Below, piece after piece: positions 2,269-46,383 of a DNA stretch of 52,208 nt. Below the pieces are notes generated by a model. It worked only from the letters and a program-made list of their open reading frames with translations, did not search any database and had not been told where the DNA came from. Within the stretch, counting starts at the first letter, position 1; each line of letters begins with the position of its first letter. Source of the DNA: Candidatus Aminicenantota bacterium (lineage in GTDB: Bacteria > Acidobacteriota > Aminicenantia > Aminicenantales > UBA4085); assembly GCA_017883285.1 (NCBI GenBank), contig JADGNV010000080.1:1-52208 (forward strand), read 5' to 3'. The translations under genes and the position numbers were made by a program.

Positions 2269-5268
2269 ATGCGATCTAAAATGGAACGACATGCCGGGGC
2301 ATCGCCGGAAAGCTTCCTGTCGGAACTTAACCGTCTGGTCGGGCAATTCAGTCGCAACCTTAGTCAATACAAGAGTGGCGTCTACGACGAAGCCAGTCTT
2401 CGCCAGGAATTCCTAGATCCTCTCTTCCGGGCCTTGGGTTGGGATGTTGAGAATAAGGCCGGCCTCATTCCACAACACCGCGAAGTCGAGATCGAAAGCC
2501 GGACGGAGATAGCCGGACGAAAGAAGCGCGCTGATTATCTTTTCCGCACCGACAGACAGGATCGTTTCATTTGCGAAGCCAAGAAGCCGATCGAGAATCT
2601 TGATTCGCGTTATGCCTTTCAGGCTAAGCGTTACGCCTGGAACAAAGGGCTCGTACTGGCCGTCCTCACGGACTTCGAGGAAATGCGGATTTATGTGGTC
2701 GGAAGCAAGCCGCATCCGGAAGAAGAGCAAATTGGCTTGTGGAGGAAATGGCAATTCCAAGAATTCCCGCTGGTCGCTCAGGAAATCTGGGACCTTCTCG
2801 CCCGCTCCTCAGTCGCTGAGGGGAGCATTGAAAAGCTGGTCGAGAAGCTCCCTCGCAAACCTGTGGCCAAGGGAAGAGCGCGCCAACAGTGGCTCTTCAA
2901 GCCTGATCGGACGCGGACCATAGATGCGGATTTCCTGAACTTCCTCGATGAAGCCCGCCGCGAATTGGCTTCCGACCTCATTCGCCAAAACAACCGCGCC
3001 GATCTTCTCGAAGGCACTCGACTTAATGAAGCCGTCCAACGCATCCTTGACCGCCTGCTCTTCCTACGCATTTGCGAAGATCGGGACATAGACACCGGCC
3101 GCCCATTGGCCTCGATTTTAAAATTTTGGCGAGCCAACGCGGAGGATGCCGTTCCTCGCCGTGTTCGTCCCTCCAAATTTTTGGTCCGTGAGGACGATGG
3201 GGCCGATAATACTCAGCCTAAAAGCGCGCCGCGCGTCTCTCTTTGGCGCGAGGTTGTCGCCCATTTCCGCGCCCTGGACCATCGCCCCGCATCCCAAATC
3301 CCGTTCTTCAACGGCAACCTTTTCAAACCTCATTTCAGTGAGGACCTCGTTGTCGGAGAGGAGTGGTTGGCGCATTTTCTCGACGAAATCGGCGACGAGG
3401 AATCTGCCTATCTTTTCAACTACATCCCGGTCGAAATTCTCGGCATCATTTACGAACGCTTCCTCGGCAAGATCGTACGCCCGCTTGGGCGCGGCGTGAC
3501 CATCGAGGAAAAGCCCGAGGTCCGCAAAGCCGGGGGCGTCTATTACACGCCGCGCTATATCGTTGAATATATCGTGGCTCATACTGTCGGCAAGCTGCTC
3601 GCCGGCCGGACGCTGGAGGAGGCGCTCCAACTTCGAATCCTTGATCCCGCCTGTGGATCGGGCAGCTTCCTCATCCACGCTTTTGAGGTCGTCAGTGAGC
3701 ATTGTCAGCAATGGCTGACCGACCATCGGGACAAAAAGAAGAAGGATTGGTATTGGGTGGAGGAAAACGCCGTTCACCTCACCGTCAAGGCCAAGCGCCA
3801 CATATTGTGCGAAACCATCCACGGCGTAGACATCGATCCACAGGCCGTGGAAGTCACACAGCTTTCCCTCTACCTCAAGATGCTTGAAGGCGAAGACCGG
3901 GCTACGCTGGCCCGGGAGAGGGAGCTCTTCGGCAGCGATGAAGCTCTTTTGCCGCCGCTCGAAGACAACATCAAATGCGGCAACTCGCTCATCGCTTCGG
4001 ACTTTTCGATCGTCCCCGACGATCTCGTGCGCGTTCACGCTTTCGACTGGCCCGTGCAATTCCTGGCCATCATGAAGGCGGGCGGATTCGATGCGGTTAT
4101 CGGAAATCCGCCCTATGGCCGACTCCTTGATGCGGCAAGCGAACGATACGCTCAGAATTCGTTTCGAGTATTCAAAGGAGTCCGTGACGTTTATGTGGCA
4201 TTTATCGAGAAGGGCATCCAATTACTGCGCAATGAGGGAAGGCTTTCATTTATAGTACCGGCTGCTTGGCTTGGCGGCCCAGCTTACCGAGACCTAAGAG
4301 AGTATTTGCTCGATTGGCGACTCGAGGAGATCATCTCGTTGCCATTCGATGTGTTTGCAGATGCATATATTGACACGGCAACTTTCGTAGTCTGTAAAGC
4401 CGTTGCCGAAGGTAACCAAGCCGTTCGTTGCTTTTCTTATGGCAAGAAGGAGAAGCTGGAGAGAATTACGGTGGCGGCCGGCCACTATCAAGCTGTTCCT
4501 TTATCGGTTTGGAAACAGTCTCCCGACCTAAAGTTTGTCTTGTCTGCTGGACTAGCAAGCCTTGTCCAATCGCTCCTTAGCAAAACGACAACTAAGCTCA
4601 GCGACTTTGTTGAAATGAAGCGTGGTGTCCTTTTTGACACGACACTTCTGCGGAATGCCAAAGCCGGGAAGAATTACCATCGGTATTTTGAGGGCGATGT
4701 TTACCGCTACGAGCTGAATCTCGTAGCTGACAGATGGGTAGAATATGGCCCGAAAATGCGCGAGTGGCCGAAAGAGTTCAGGTGGTTCGAAGGCACGCGA
4801 ATCCTCATGAGACGGCTTGTAAACCGGCAGCAGAGGTTAATGGCGACCTATGCCGAGGAAACATTCATTACGAATAAAAATTTATATTCCCTTTTGGTGA
4901 AACCGTTCGGCCAAGAGAAGGCGCAGCTTTTATTTGCCATGCTGGCAATCCTGAATAGCCGGCTCCTCTCTCGTTTATATTTGAGCCAGGTTGCCCAAGC
5001 AACGAAAGATGATTTTCCCCAAGTTACCATCGCAGATGTTATGGCTTTACCAGTCCCTTCCCCTGCAAAAGAGCAGATGGCAATGCTGGCGCAATTTGCC
5101 AAGAAGCTCATTGCCCTAAATCCGAAGCTGCGAGCAGCCAAGTCGGATGCGGAGCGGAAGACCCTGCAGAACGCCGTCACCGCAACAGATCAGCAGATCG
5201 ACGAGCTCGTCTATGAGCTTTACGGCCTGACACAAGACGAAATCAAACTGGTCGAGGGCACGCCATGA
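2269..5268 (+). CDS. Single-polypeptide restriction-modification enzyme (type IIG-like, N6-adenine methylase)
   Basis: This 999-residue protein combines cleavage, methylation and target recognition. Near the N-terminus there is a PD-(D/E)xK nuclease signature of the type I HsdR N-terminal kind (D89, then E103-A-K105). The methylase has SAM-binding motif I, DPACGSGSF, at residues 459-467, and catalytic motif IV, NPPY, at 613-616, as in Eco57I-like adenine methylases. The last ~350 residues resemble a TaqI-type target recognition and helical region. No separate restriction or specificity subunit is adjacent. The second half of the gene is visibly richer in A+T than its neighbours, which suggests horizontal transfer. 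A second ATG lies four codons downstream (2281). It converges on the ATPase gene with a 14-bp gap. A PglX-like phage-defence methylase is an alternative, but no other BREX gene is present. Confidence 0.88.
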   Translation: MRSKMERHAGASPESFLSELNRLVGQFSRNLSQYKSGVYDEASLRQEFLDPLFRALGWDVENKAGLIPQHREVEIESRTEIAGRKKRADYLFRTDRQDRFICEAKKPIENLDSRYAFQAKRYAWNKGLVLAVLTDFEEMRIYVVGSKPHPEEEQIGLWRKWQFQEFPLVAQEIWDLLARSSVAEGSIEKLVEKLPRKPVAKGRARQQWLFKPDRTRTIDADFLNFLDEARRELASDLIRQNNRADLLEGTRLNEAVQRILDRLLFLRICEDRDIDTGRPLASILKFWRANAEDAVPRRVRPSKFLVREDDGADNTQPKSAPRVSLWREVVAHFRALDHRPASQIPFFNGNLFKPHFSEDLVVGEEWLAHFLDEIGDEESAYLFNYIPVEILGIIYERFLGKIVRPLGRGVTIEEKPEVRKAGGVYYTPRYIVEYIVAHTVGKLLAGRTLEEALQLRILDPACGSGSFLIHAFEVVSEHCQQWLTDHRDKKKKDWYWVEENAVHLTVKAKRHILCETIHGVDIDPQAVEVTQLSLYLKMLEGEDRATLARERELFGSDEALLPPLEDNIKCGNSLIASDFSIVPDDLVRVHAFDWPVQFLAIMKAGGFDAVIGNPPYGRLLDAASERYAQNSFRVFKGVRDVYVAFIEKGIQLLRNEGRLSFIVPAAWLGGPAYRDLREYLLDWRLEEIISLPFDVFADAYIDTATFVVCKAVAEGNQAVRCFSYGKKEKLERITVAAGHYQAVPLSVWKQSPDLKFVLSAGLASLVQSLLSKTTTKLSDFVEMKRGVLFDTTLLRNAKAGKNYHRYFEGDVYRYELNLVADRWVEYGPKMREWPKEFRWFEGTRILMRRLVNRQQRLMATYAEETFITNKNLYSLLVKPFGQEKAQLLFAMLAILNSRLLSRLYLSQVAQATKDDFPQVTIADVMALPVPSPAKEQMAMLAQFAKKLIALNPKLRAAKSDAERKTLQNAVTATDQQIDELVYELYGLTQDEIKLVEGTP

Positions 5269-43043: not shown

Positions 43044-44294
43044 CTATTCGTAGCGGAGGGAGACGATCGGGTCGACCCGGGCCGCCTTGCGCGCGGGGAA
43101 GATGCCGAAGAACAAGCCGACCGAGATCGAGACGAACAGTCCCATGAACACCGACCAGGGCGTGACGGTGGCCGGGAGCGGCGTCACGGCCCGGACGAGG
43201 AAGGCTACTCCGAAGCCGATTATCGTCCCCAGGACCCCGCCCGTCCCCGTGAGGACCATGGCCTCGATCAGGAACTGCTTCAGGATGTCCTTCGAGTAGG
43301 CCCCGAGCGCCTTGCGGATGCCGATCTCCCGGGTCCGCTCCTTGGCCGAGACGAGCATGATGTTCATGACCCCGATGCCGCCGACGAGCAGGCCGATCGA
43401 GGAGATGATGATCATCACGAGATAAGCCGCTCCGGTGATTTGGTTGTAGAGGTCGAGCATCGAGTCCTGGGTGAAGACGGCGAAATCGTTGGGCTTGCCG
43501 AAGGGGACCTTGCGCCGCCGGCGGAGGATGTTGGAGATTTCCTCGATCGTCTCCTGGATCGTGCCCGGTGTGCGCGGGACGGCGCCGATCTGGAAATGGG
43601 ACTTGTCGTAGGTGAACATCTTCATGAAGGTCGTGATCGGGATCCCGACGAGATTATCGCGGCTCTGGCCGAACATCTCCCCCCGCTTGTTCATGACGCC
43701 TATGACCGTGAACTTTTCGGGGCCGACCCGGATCTCCTTGCCGATCGCGCTCGTATGAGGGAACAGGGTCTCCGCGGTCTCGAAGCCGAGGAGCGCGGTC
43801 CGGCTGGAATGGATGATCTCCGACTCCGTCAGAAACCGCCCTTCCTTGGGCATGTAGATGTTGTAGACGGCCGGGAACTTGTCCGTCATGCCGATGATGA
43901 TCGTGTTGTCGCTTTTGACGTTCTGGTACTTGACCGGGATCTCTTCGAAGACGTTGGAGTTCAGGAGGGTCGTAACGGCCCGGACGAGCTTCGCCTCGCG
44001 CTCGATGGCCTTGGCGTCTTCGTAGGTCAGGTCCTTCCGCGTCCGCTGCTCTTCGGACATCCGGCCCATCATGACGGCGTCGTTCTTCTGGATCATGATC
44101 AGGTCCGAGCCGGCCGACTCGAGCTCCCGGACGAACGAGGCGTTGAGTCCGGAGATGATCGAAACCATGCCGATGACGGTCATGACCCCGATCATGATCC
44201 CGAGGAGCGTGAGGAAGGAGCGCAGCTTGTGGGCCCGGATCGAGTCGAAGGACATGGTCAGGATCTCGCGGAAGATGCCGGAGCGGAGCTTCAT
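43044..44294 (-). CDS. FtsX/MacB-type ABC permease
   Basis: This 416-residue protein follows the MacB permease plan: a transmembrane helix near the N-terminus (FLTLLGIMIGVMTVIGMVSII), a periplasmic domain of about 220 residues, and three C-terminal helices of the FtsX core (LVMIIISSIGLLVGGIGVMNIMLV, then ERTREIGIRKALGA). Members export peptides, antibiotics or lipoproteins, or transmit signals. The end of the upstream permease gene overlaps its start by 4 bases. No ATP-binding subunit lies next to the pair. Confidence 0.92.
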   Translation of the reverse strand: MKLRSGIFREILTMSFDSIRAHKLRSFLTLLGIMIGVMTVIGMVSIISGLNASFVRELESAGSDLIMIQKNDAVMMGRMSEEQRTRKDLTYEDAKAIEREAKLVRAVTTLLNSNVFEEIPVKYQNVKSDNTIIIGMTDKFPAVYNIYMPKEGRFLTESEIIHSSRTALLGFETAETLFPHTSAIGKEIRVGPEKFTVIGVMNKRGEMFGQSRDNLVGIPITTFMKMFTYDKSHFQIGAVPRTPGTIQETIEEISNILRRRRKVPFGKPNDFAVFTQDSMLDLYNQITGAAYLVMIIISSIGLLVGGIGVMNIMLVSAKERTREIGIRKALGAYSKDILKQFLIEAMVLTGTGGVLGTIIGFGVAFLVRAVTPLPATVTPWSVFMGLFVSISVGLFFGIFPARKAARVDPIVSLRYE

Positions 44295-45526
44295 TGTTCG
44301 GACCTCAGGGCCTCGATCGGATCGAGCTTGGCCGCCTTGTTGGCCGGGTAGATTCCGAAGAACAGGCCGATGGACGTGGACATGACGAGGGCCATCAGGA
44401 CGGAGACCGGCTCGACGCTCGAGGGGAAGCCGGTCGCGGCCGAGACGCCCTTGGCCAGGAGGACGCCAAGGATGATCCCGATCAGGCCGCCGAGAGCGCT
44501 GATCGTCGAGGACTCGATCAGAAACTGGAAGAGGATGTTGTTCCGGCGGGCGCCGATCGCCATCCGGATGCCGATCTCCTTGGTCCGCTCGGTCACCGAG
44601 ACGAGCATGATGTTCATGACCACGATCCCGCCCACGAGGAGGGCGATCGAGGCGATGCCGATCATGGCGAAGTAGATGCCCGTGGTCGCCGTCTTGTAGA
44701 ACTGGATGAACGTTTCGGACGTCCGGAAGGAGAAGTCGTCGGGCCTGGCGAAGGTGAGCTTCCGGGCGGAGCGGAGGATCGTCCGGACTTCCTCCTGGGC
44801 CGCGGCCATCTCTTCCAGGGAGACCGTGTGGATGTTGATGTCGATCGACCGCCGCGAGCCGTAGATCTTGGTGAAGGTCGTGATCGGGATCCGCAGGTAA
44901 TTATCCTGGCTGAAGCCCAGGATCTTGCCCTTCTCCTTGCCGACCCCGACCACCAGGAAGCCGTCGGTGCCGGCTCGGACCCACTTGCCCAGGGGGTCGA
45001 TGCCGGCGAAGAGGTTCTTGGCGATTTCGGCCCCGATGACGCACACGTTGCGGGAGTGGTCCTCGTCCTCCCTCTGGATGTGGCGGCCGGCGTCCAGCTC
45101 GACCACCGAGCCGATCATGTGGTCGAGATAGGTGACCCCCCGGACCTCGGCGTCCTTGACCTGCCGGTTGCCGTATTTCACGTTCCGGGTCGTGCCCGTG
45201 CTCGCCCCGATGAGATCGGCGTGGGTGGACTTGGCCCGGAGAAGCTCCATCTCCTCGAGGGTGATATCCTTTCGTTTCATCTGCTCCTTGAAATCCTTGA
45301 GAGACATCCCGATCGAGCCGAATTTGGACACCGCAAAGTCGTTGGCCCCGTAGAAGGACATTTTGGAGTAGACGTAGTTGTTCAGCCCTTGGATGACCGA
45401 TACTACGGCGATGATGGTCAGGACGCCGATGATGATGCCCAGGAGGGTCAGGAACGTCCGGAGCTTGTTCGACCAGAGCGATCCCATCGCCATTCCGAAT
45501 GATTCGCCGATGTTGAGCTTTGCCAT
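44291..45526 (-). CDS. FtsX/MacB-type ABC permease
   Basis: This 411-residue paralogue of the next gene has the same architecture: first helix FLTLLGIIIGVLTIIAVVSVI, a periplasmic domain, and a C-terminal FtsX core with GIASIALLVGGIVVMNIMLV and ERTKEIGIRMAIGARR. The start at 45526 is preferred to the ATG at 45571, which lies upstream of the predicted transcription start. The -10 TAAAAT leaves a leader of about 10 bases without a ribosome binding site. The two permeases probably form a heterodimer. The cognate ATPase must be encoded elsewhere. Confidence 0.92.
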   Translation of the reverse strand: MAKLNIGESFGMAMGSLWSNKLRTFLTLLGIIIGVLTIIAVVSVIQGLNNYVYSKMSFYGANDFAVSKFGSIGMSLKDFKEQMKRKDITLEEMELLRAKSTHADLIGASTGTTRNVKYGNRQVKDAEVRGVTYLDHMIGSVVELDAGRHIQREDEDHSRNVCVIGAEIAKNLFAGIDPLGKWVRAGTDGFLVVGVGKEKGKILGFSQDNYLRIPITTFTKIYGSRRSIDINIHTVSLEEMAAAQEEVRTILRSARKLTFARPDDFSFRTSETFIQFYKTATTGIYFAMIGIASIALLVGGIVVMNIMLVSVTERTKEIGIRMAIGARRNNILFQFLIESSTISALGGLIGIILGVLLAKGVSAATGFPSSVEPVSVLMALVMSTSIGLFFGIYPANKAAKLDPIEALRSEQ

Positions 45527-45548: not shown

Positions 45549-45610
45549 CATGAAATGATACGGATTTGCATGGGAAAGGTTTTCGGGGGGGCCCGTTCTT
45601 TTCAATCCGG

Positions 45611-45719
45611 CGCTGGGGTCGGCCCCGCCCCTCCGGGGGAACCAGTCCCGTCGGTTCCCCCCCATCGAAAACCGATGGGGCCCCCCCTCCGCTATGAGGG
45701 CCTTGGGCCGACCCCAGCG
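45611..45719. repeat. Structured intergenic element with 15-bp terminal inverted repeats
   Basis: Perfect 15-bp arms (CGCTGGGGTCGGCCC at 45611-45625 and its complement at 45705-45719) enclose two smaller perfect hairpins: GGGGGAACC/GGTTCCCCC (45635-45643/45653-45661) and CCCCATCG/CGATGGGG (45660-45667/45673-45680). It lies between divergent promoters and outside both predicted transcripts. A palindromic mobile repeat or a structured RNA from an unseen promoter are both possible. The rest of 45527-45822 holds only the two promoters. Confidence 0.75.
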
Positions 45720-45755
45720 TCGGTGGCGCCCGCGGGAGGGGACTTCCCCGCCGTG

Positions 45756-45784
45756 TTGACATTGCCGGACGTTCCACCGACAAT
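45756..45784 (+). promoter_or_regulatory. Promoter of the outer-membrane protein operon
   Basis: A perfect TTGACA (45756-45761) and GACAAT (45779-45784) are spaced by 17 bp. The start near 45791 is followed by AAGGAG, 6 bases before the ATG at 45823. Confidence 0.7.
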
Positions 45785-45822: not shown

Positions 45823-46383
45823 ATGAAACGCATTATCGGTTTTGGGCTCGCCGCAGCCCTTCTGCTGACCGCGGTCCCCGCCTTTTCCCAGGTCGGGATC
45901 TACGTCGGCGGCTACGCCGGCCTCTCCCAGCAGAAGCCGAGCTTCGACTCTGCCCAGTTCAACACGGACACGACCTTCGTCTACGGTCTCCGGGGCGGCG
46001 TCCGGATCCTGATGCTCGCCCTGGAGCTGAGCTATTTCCGGGCCGGGCACAACATCTCCATGGGGGACTTCGTCACGTTCCAATGGGACGGGCTGGAGAA
46101 CGACTTCAGCTACATCGGGGCGAGCCTCCGCTGGATCTTCTCCCTCGCGATCCTGCATCCCTACCTGACGGCCGGATACGGCTATTACACGGCCGACATC
46201 GGGACCATCGACAAGGGCCACGACGGCGGCTACAACTTCGGGGCGGGCCTCGAAGTCGCGTTCGGCAGCAAGATTTCGCTTGTCGTGGAAGGCAAATACC
46301 ACCACGTGAGCGTGGACATCTCCAATATCCGTCTCGGCCTGGGCAATTTCATCATGACCGCCGGGTTGAGCCTCAACTTCTGA
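45823..46383 (+). CDS. Small outer-membrane beta-barrel protein
   Basis: This 186-residue protein has a signal peptide (MKRIIGFGLAAALLLTAVPAFSQ). Alternating hydrophobic/polar strands rich in Gly and aromatic residues follow (IYVGGYAGLSQ, YGLRGGVRILMLALELSYF, SYIGASLRWIF, LEVAFGSKISLVVEGKYHH). It ends in ITAGLSLNF, so the last residue is Phe, the usual signal for outer-membrane barrel insertion. It resembles OmpW/OmpA-barrel (outer membrane beta-barrel) families of eight strands. The stop overlaps the start of the pseudouridine synthase gene (TGATG). Confidence 0.85.
   Translation: MKRIIGFGLAAALLLTAVPAFSQVGIYVGGYAGLSQQKPSFDSAQFNTDTTFVYGLRGGVRILMLALELSYFRAGHNISMGDFVTFQWDGLENDFSYIGASLRWIFSLAILHPYLTAGYGYYTADIGTIDKGHDGGYNFGAGLEVAFGSKISLVVEGKYHHVSVDISNIRLGLGNFIMTAGLSLNF

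Follow-up and report, generated by a model that had tools for sequence, protein, structure and literature searches.

A probably mobile family of intergenic repeats, with a nearly invariant core inside a stem of free sequence, in Aminicenantes and distant bacteria

Small mobile repeats are normally recognised through their terminal sequence or through a short tagged hairpin, and structured RNAs also belong to mobile elements, as in HEARO and the guide RNAs of IscB and TnpB. REP and REPIN repeats, moved by RAYT (Y1 HUH), are interspersed, intergenic, palindromic and patchily distributed across species, and the element described here is like them in all four respects. Its unpaired [AG]TAG, lying beside a hairpin, also resembles the GTAG tag of REP elements as presented in PMC3733652, and with the MITEs described there (RUP, ERIC and NEMIS) it has in common a length within 70-300 nt, the lack of an ORF, terminal arms and intergenic placement. 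The element lies in the window, by which we mean the whole stretch of 52,208 nt that was analysed. A first-pass annotation, made from the letters alone, had offered three readings for it: a repeated mobile element, a cruciform regulator or an unseen small RNA.

The element and its surroundings in the window

The element is 117 nt long, intergenic, and occupies positions 45607-45723. It had been described as a pair of perfect 15-bp arms closing around two perfect hairpins of 9 and 8 bp, and this is exact in the sequence: 45611-45625 and 45705-45719 are perfect reverse complements, and the hairpins pair 45635-45643 with 45653-45661 and 45660-45667 with 45673-45680. The two hairpins overlap by two C residues, so that both cannot be fully paired at once. 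The arms can be extended to 45607-45625 and 45705-45723 (19 nt, 95% complementary). RNA folding gives -83.3 kcal/mol for the plus strand (z = -6.1) and -83.8 kcal/mol for the minus strand (z = -4.3), with none of 200 shuffles as good in either case. A chance origin of the fold is excluded because copies and covariation were found, as detailed below.

We take the minus strand to be the folded one, from the balance of G.T and A.C mismatches, and we set the limits of the element by stem pairing and by its match to a covariance model, R1 (45600-45730, minus strand, 118.7 bits, rank 11 among 38 copies in the genome). Read along this strand, the parts follow in the order P1, an AA bulge, P1b (GGCCCNC), the unpaired ATAGCGGA with a G-run, P3, P2 (with the core GGAACC-GACGGGACT-GGTTCC) and finally the strands that complete P1b and P1. 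The outer stem P1 is formed by the two 19-nt arms (5' arm at 45705-45723, 3' arm at 45607-45625), whose sequence varies in other copies while their pairing is kept. It is separated by the two-base bulge (45703-45704, AA being the commonest form in the copy alignment) from the inner stem P1b, with the 5' arm GGCCCTC at 45696-45702, which takes part in a covarying pair, and the 3' arm at 45627-45633, which has one mismatch in the window copy, at 45628. The conserved unpaired strand, ATAGCGGA plus the G-run, spans 45681-45695 and reads GTAGCGGA in many relatives. Then come the P3 hairpin (CCCCATCG / CGATGGGG, 45660-45680), variable in length and sequence among copies, and the P2 hairpin (GGGGGAACC-GACGGGACT-GGTTCCCCC, 45635-45661), the most conserved part of all.

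According to our own gene caller, the flanking genes are a MacB/FtsX-type ABC permease on the minus strand (44291-45526; Pfam MacB_PCD 115 bits, FtsX 77 bits) and an outer-membrane beta-barrel protein on the plus strand (45823-46383; Pfam OMP_b-brl 60 bits). The element had been placed between divergent promoters, and a consensus scan bears out one half of this: a sigma-70-like promoter, TTGACA-17-GACAAT, lies on the plus strand at 45756-45784 and is directed away from the element, and the same scan found no minus-strand promoter beside the element towards the permease gene. Over the family as a whole (119 of 125 elements, 150-nt flanks), outward promoter-like sites are present in 39 flanks of 119 on the 5' side and 43 on the 3' side, where shuffling the bases gives about 17 and 14; inward sites, by a sigma-70-type consensus, stay at the shuffle level (13 and 13 of 119, versus 11 and 13). 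On average, the family flanks have no T-rich stretch after either end of the element. The earlier statement that the element is neither a leader nor a terminator agrees with these family statistics, that is, with the outward promoter-like sites and the lack of a T-run past either end.

Copies, covariation and the folded strand

The host is an uncultured bacterium, Aminicenantes-type judging by its relatives, a group within the phylum Acidobacteriota. A BLAST-type search of its genome (G000; 3.09 Mb in 227 contigs) returned 43 matches, several of which were fragments or overlaps of one another. Alignments took 38 of the 40 distinct places, leaving out L043 and L044 as fragments, and R1 is likewise based on 38 of these places. 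Run on the same genome, R1 found 38 copies, 37 of them across the entire model (its 42 rows include four others, namely three opposite-strand matches to counted copies and one marginal match). Searching the genome for copies, which had been proposed as a check, thus reveals an interspersed family with 38 members in 3.09 Mb. Family members are about 103-166 nt long (median 135). Two copies, L034 (~2978-3105) and L038 (~2978-3104), have flanks that are also alike, as if they lay inside a longer duplicated segment. In a Saccharicenans genome, one locus (L178, G039:C16:60764-61235) holds three head-to-tail copies with a 173-bp period, the last with near-perfect arms and the first two with degenerate 3' arms.

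Copies differ almost freely in the sequence of their outer stem, and the inner core is nearly invariant. Within the host genome, ATAGCGGA is invariant across the 38 copies and P2 is nearly so in 35 of them, in a set that was found without demanding P2. Three copies (L037, L041 and L045) have the GGTTCC side of P2 replaced by a CCGGCG...CGCCGG hairpin, with GAACCGA kept; since this segment is retained although its pairing partner is replaced, it may have a role beyond pairing. Relatives carry [AG]TAG[CT]GGA at the unpaired segment, part of their selection having used a loose form of this motif.

Covariation among the 38 host copies is extensive. Changes on both sides are seen for 23 of 40 pairs, and such changes amount to 136 cells, compared with 41 +/- 6 in 500 shuffles, none of which was as high (the shuffles ignore the relatedness of copies). 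The compensatory changes that the first-pass annotation had named as a check were therefore found, far above the shuffled level, and the annotated structure scores above its slid versions in the same copies. One pair of P1b, for example, is UA in 19 copies, GC in 13, CG in four and AU in one, and is unpaired in one.

For stem statistics, we assembled 125 elements (35 of the 38 host copies, 77 from the loci of a scan of species genomes and 13 from relatives), selected by core pattern and by a pairing threshold, with duplicates removed. The threshold favours well-paired stems, so that absolute pairing and own-arm scores are inflated, and it leaves the contrast between G.T and A.C unaffected. Arms paired with their own partner had a median score of 44.75 in the host genome and 43.5 elsewhere; paired with the arm of another copy, medians dropped to 23.5 and 17.5, with the highest single swaps at 51.5 and 67. 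Own-arm scores exceeded the 95th percentile of swapped scores for 82% of elements in the host genome and 88% elsewhere. The 5' arms of different copies share a median of 30% identity, ungapped (1500 random pairs, 126 elements).

The mismatches that remain in the stems are not symmetric between strands. On the strand taken as folded, there are 195 G.T versus 92 A.C mismatches (p ~1e-9 under independence, an assumption that related copies violate), and counted per element, 73 lean towards G.T and 16 in the opposite direction. The host genome on its own shows 53 versus 27, a separate count on its 38 copies gives 38 versus 19 in the same direction, and a stem count retaining about two thirds of the copies leans the same way (32 A.C versus 13 G.T in the orientation of the window). 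The bias resides in the inner stem (pairs 6-25; 132 G.T versus 37 A.C) and is not seen in the outer stem (pairs 26-45; 58 versus 53); P3 has 16 versus 5. An excess of G.T over A.C on one strand argues that this particular strand folds, which for the window would be the minus strand, judging from sequence counts. Strand-specific folding fits RNA and single-stranded DNA equally.

Distribution, placement and signs of movement

We searched 30 genomes including the host with R1. Matches were found in 16 of the 29 relatives, with 1-36 in each, and there was none in a genome of the same genus (G001). With stricter filters, two of 99 genomes sampled from the host phylum were positive, namely the host and G016, which belongs to its order, and outside the host order no match was found among 96 genomes of the phylum. 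Under the same stricter filters, a sample of the Elusimicrobia phylum had four positives among 79 genomes, counting the one it started from, and a sample centred on a genome of Yanofskybacteria had two among 116, both of them Yanofskybacteria and one being the starting point. The element is multi-copy in these far relatives, with R1 matching 73 times in one Elusimicrobia genome and 23 times in the 0.7-Mb genome of a Yanofskybacteria.

When the P2 core was used to scan a collection of 84,980 species genomes, a design in which conservation of P2 is by construction, it gave at least 96 stretches with at least 103 exact core matches. Among the stretches listed, 68 have titles naming Aminicenantes, Saccharicenans or Acidobacteria, nine 'Clostridiales', eight Yanofskybacteria and seven Elusimicrobia, with one each for Woykebacteria, Taylorbacteria, Actinobacteria and Bacteroides. 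Those copies from these loci that were folded take up the common fold with AT-rich or unrelated stems, apart from a few degenerate copies and the Actinobacteria match. We set aside three of the titles as weak. The 'Actinobacteria' locus (L108, UBA3120) agrees with the pattern at its 20 fixed bases, and its genome (G045) gives no match to the fold. All nine 'Clostridiales' loci among the 96 come from A05DMB-I-28 (G037, JARYMI), whose match coordinates equal those of G019 from the host order, so the title seems wrong and we do not count it as a further phylum. The single match in 'Bacteroides' SM23_62 may be contamination. No match was found in viral contigs with the exact core, nor in plasmids and phages with the window copy (blastn).

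Placement was assessed with our own hexamer gene caller. All 38 host copies lie between genes, L026 overlapping one gene end by 22 nt; 14 are between divergent genes, 19 between tandem and four between convergent ones, and one has a single called neighbour. They occur in both orientations relative to neighbouring genes. Element-free gaps of at least 100 bp in the same loci are distributed in a similar manner (20 divergent, 25 tandem, 5 convergent), which suggests that placement follows the available space. A wider set for gene distances comprised 113 of the 125 elements, leaving out loci with titles naming other phyla (L150, L157, L158 and L161 were kept although they are from Elusimicrobia or Yanofskybacteria). 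Here 112 of 113 copies are intergenic, the midpoint of the other falling well within a called gene, and 27 of the 97 copies with two called neighbours sit between divergent genes. Stop codons that face the folded strand's 3' side lie at a median distance of 23.5 nt (n = 50), much closer than those that face its 5' side, at 96 nt (n = 42), with p = 1e-4 for the contrast; for start codons the two values are alike (110 versus 105). Some of the 5'-side stop-codon cases in the host genome have, by eye, a terminator-like hairpin between the stop codon and the element.

We compared about 1.6 Mb (42%) of the same-genus genome G001, which has no R1 copy anywhere, and located both flanks of 13 of 35 host sites in the compared part. 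In the alignments of seven of these sites, four (L016, L030, L039 and L040) have a gap roughly as long as a site lacking the element should have. A fifth falls short of this, and the last two carry other DNA, 75-120 bases of it; at the site of the window copy there are 40 bases more than expected. Exact insertion ends cannot be read at the empty sites, as the intergenic DNA is too diverged. At the site corresponding to L039, G001 keeps a piece that resembles the 3' arm and that may be a remnant of the element, another origin being possible as well. Flanks share 8-mers in five of 123 pairs, compared with a permuted mean of 1.3 and maximum of 4, a weak and non-significant hint of target-site duplication, and the 4- to 6-mer flank matches above permutation fall inside the arms. 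Element orientation shows no bias with respect to GC skew, in what is a weak test of lagging-strand insertion.

Some positions are old. Five loci from Saccharicenans-like or Acidobacteria genomes (L082, L089, L120, L124 and L135) have the same L-fucose-isomerase-like gene at a distance of 47-53 nt from the element, which counts against steady turnover. We also considered that the arms might be made anew at each site by inverted duplication of the target. Several Yanofskybacteria copies share stem lineages, so that arms are at least partly inherited, and we rejected this idea.

No recurring mobile gene was found beside the element in 141 loci. The largest groups of neighbours, excluding reading frames over the element, were TolB-like propellers (six, two of them on one contig), L-fucose isomerases, ABC ATPases and response regulators (five each). 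Domain searches for a partner enzyme are to be read with the caveat that incomplete bins make each absence soft. The Y1 transposase (PF01797) is present in 26 of 38 genome entries (two genomes being entered twice) and does not track the element: there was no match in the element-bearing G012, G017, G022, G023, G024, G030, G031 and G033 (bins 70-96% complete where stated), and nine other genomes carry Y1 but lack the element. The host's only Y1-transposase-like gene (L046, G000:C145:10655-13993) has copies of another inverted repeat, GGGGTCAGG...CCTGACCCC, on its flanks, and that repeat is probably its own mobile partner. Reverse transcriptase (PF00078) was found in 10 of 30 genomes but neither in the host nor in most of the element-rich relatives, the element-bearing genomes that lack it being G000, G003, G004, G007, G016, G018, G019 and G022; six of the seven Elusimicrobia and CPR genomes have it, so that a role there is possible. 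The TnpB-type domain PF07282 was found in none of the 30 genomes, and in six of 14 control genomes.

Candidate explanations and comparison with known systems

Our preferred explanation, which we hold to be probable, is that the element is a copy of a non-autonomous mobile DNA repeat family (REP/MITE-like), recognised by structure in a single-strand fold and spread by an enzyme acting in trans. Among the three options of the first-pass annotation, it is thus the repeated mobile element that is favoured, by the interspersed copies, the patchy distribution and the element-free sites in the same-genus relative. In the mechanism that we propose, the minus strand would fold so that the long outer stem closes a junction composed of the unpaired A/GTAGCGGA and G-run, the variable P3 and the near-invariant P2. 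A trans-acting enzyme would bind the invariant core of this single-stranded form and need the stem merely as a helix, and the element would then be copied as single-stranded DNA into intergenic DNA, where copies could persist because they avoid coding DNA and, for the most part, transcribed DNA as well. The proximity of stop codons on the 3' side is not among the predictions of this mobile-repeat explanation. Whether the family is moreover a new mobile class is a more tentative proposal, possible but doubtful at present: such a class would combine a single-strand fold, an invariant internal core and a closing stem of free sequence with an enzyme that is neither Y1 transposase, TnpB nor reverse transcriptase, and would occur in Aminicenantes, Elusimicrobia and CPR bacteria, probably through horizontal transfer.

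The copies could instead encode a structured non-coding RNA that is read from the folded strand and acts in trans, its core binding protein or RNA, with copies multiplying as dosage or diversification is useful. Pairing of the G.U type specific to one strand, compensatory stem changes, and loop and junction bases that are near-invariant in host copies found without demanding them are all expected of such an RNA; yet inward promoter-like sites by the sigma-70 consensus are at the shuffle level on both sides, no T-rich tail follows the 3' end, the orientation to neighbouring genes is not fixed, the same-genus genome lacks it, and the window has no Rfam match. We prefer the DNA reading because of the absent inward promoters and the orientation pattern, and consider an RNA unlikely. 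A structure useful to the host, in DNA or in a 3' UTR, might insulate transcription units by forming a barrier past a stop codon and upstream of the next promoter. This would account for the location of the element between units with outward promoters, for the stop codon that often lies within ~25 nt on one side only, and for sites common to several species. It fits poorly with the 27 of 97 two-neighbour copies whose neighbours are divergent, a setting that offers no transcript to terminate, and with the lack of an intrinsic-terminator tail, the resemblance of host placement to that of element-free gaps of at least 100 bp and match counts ranging from 0 to 36 among relatives, so that we regard insulation as quite improbable.

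The conventional alternative, a TIR-type MITE of an ordinary insertion sequence in which the arms would serve as the terminal inverted repeats, matches the size, the terminal arms and the intergenic placement. We judge it very improbable, given that arm sequence is not conserved between copies, that the invariant part is internal, that no transposase gene recurs beside copies and that there is no clear target duplication. Under the mobile-repeat explanation that we favour, what selection or the copying process keeps of a ~25-bp stem, in distant bacteria, would be its pairing alone, on one strand and around an invariant core. The family would make it tractable to look for the agent that spreads a shape-recognised repeat, the more so as a 0.7-Mb CPR genome with 23 matches offers a very small list of suspects for the spreading enzyme, and it would be a new entry for libraries of repeats and RNA families.

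Searches of Rfam 15 gave no match at the gathering score in the window, and with E up to 5, six loci of the host genome gave only a chance-like overlap with BjrC80 (21.2 bits versus a cut-off of 80). In the literature searched, we found no description of the element family and no occurrence of three core sequence strings. HEARO and the guide RNAs of IscB and TnpB are similar to the element in their covarying multi-stem fold, intergenic location and ORF-less copies, but PF07282 is absent from the 30 genomes, the window has no Rfam match, and no nuclease gene recurs as a neighbour. The terminal inverted repeats of MITEs differ from the arms of the element, which are not conserved in sequence; in our family the conserved part is internal, and no known insertion sequence is tied to it. 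Whereas REP and REPIN repeats are simple palindromes of 20-40 bp with the tag at one end of the stem, the element is 103-166 nt long (median 135), forms a junction of three helices, and has its conserved unpaired [AG]TAG internally, at the junction within a long stem. Unlike in REP/RAYT systems, this stem changes sequence freely, some element-bearing genomes have no Y1 match, and the sole Y1 gene of the host is flanked by another repeat. The family is apparently undescribed, and departs from REP elements and from MITEs in a defining feature of each.
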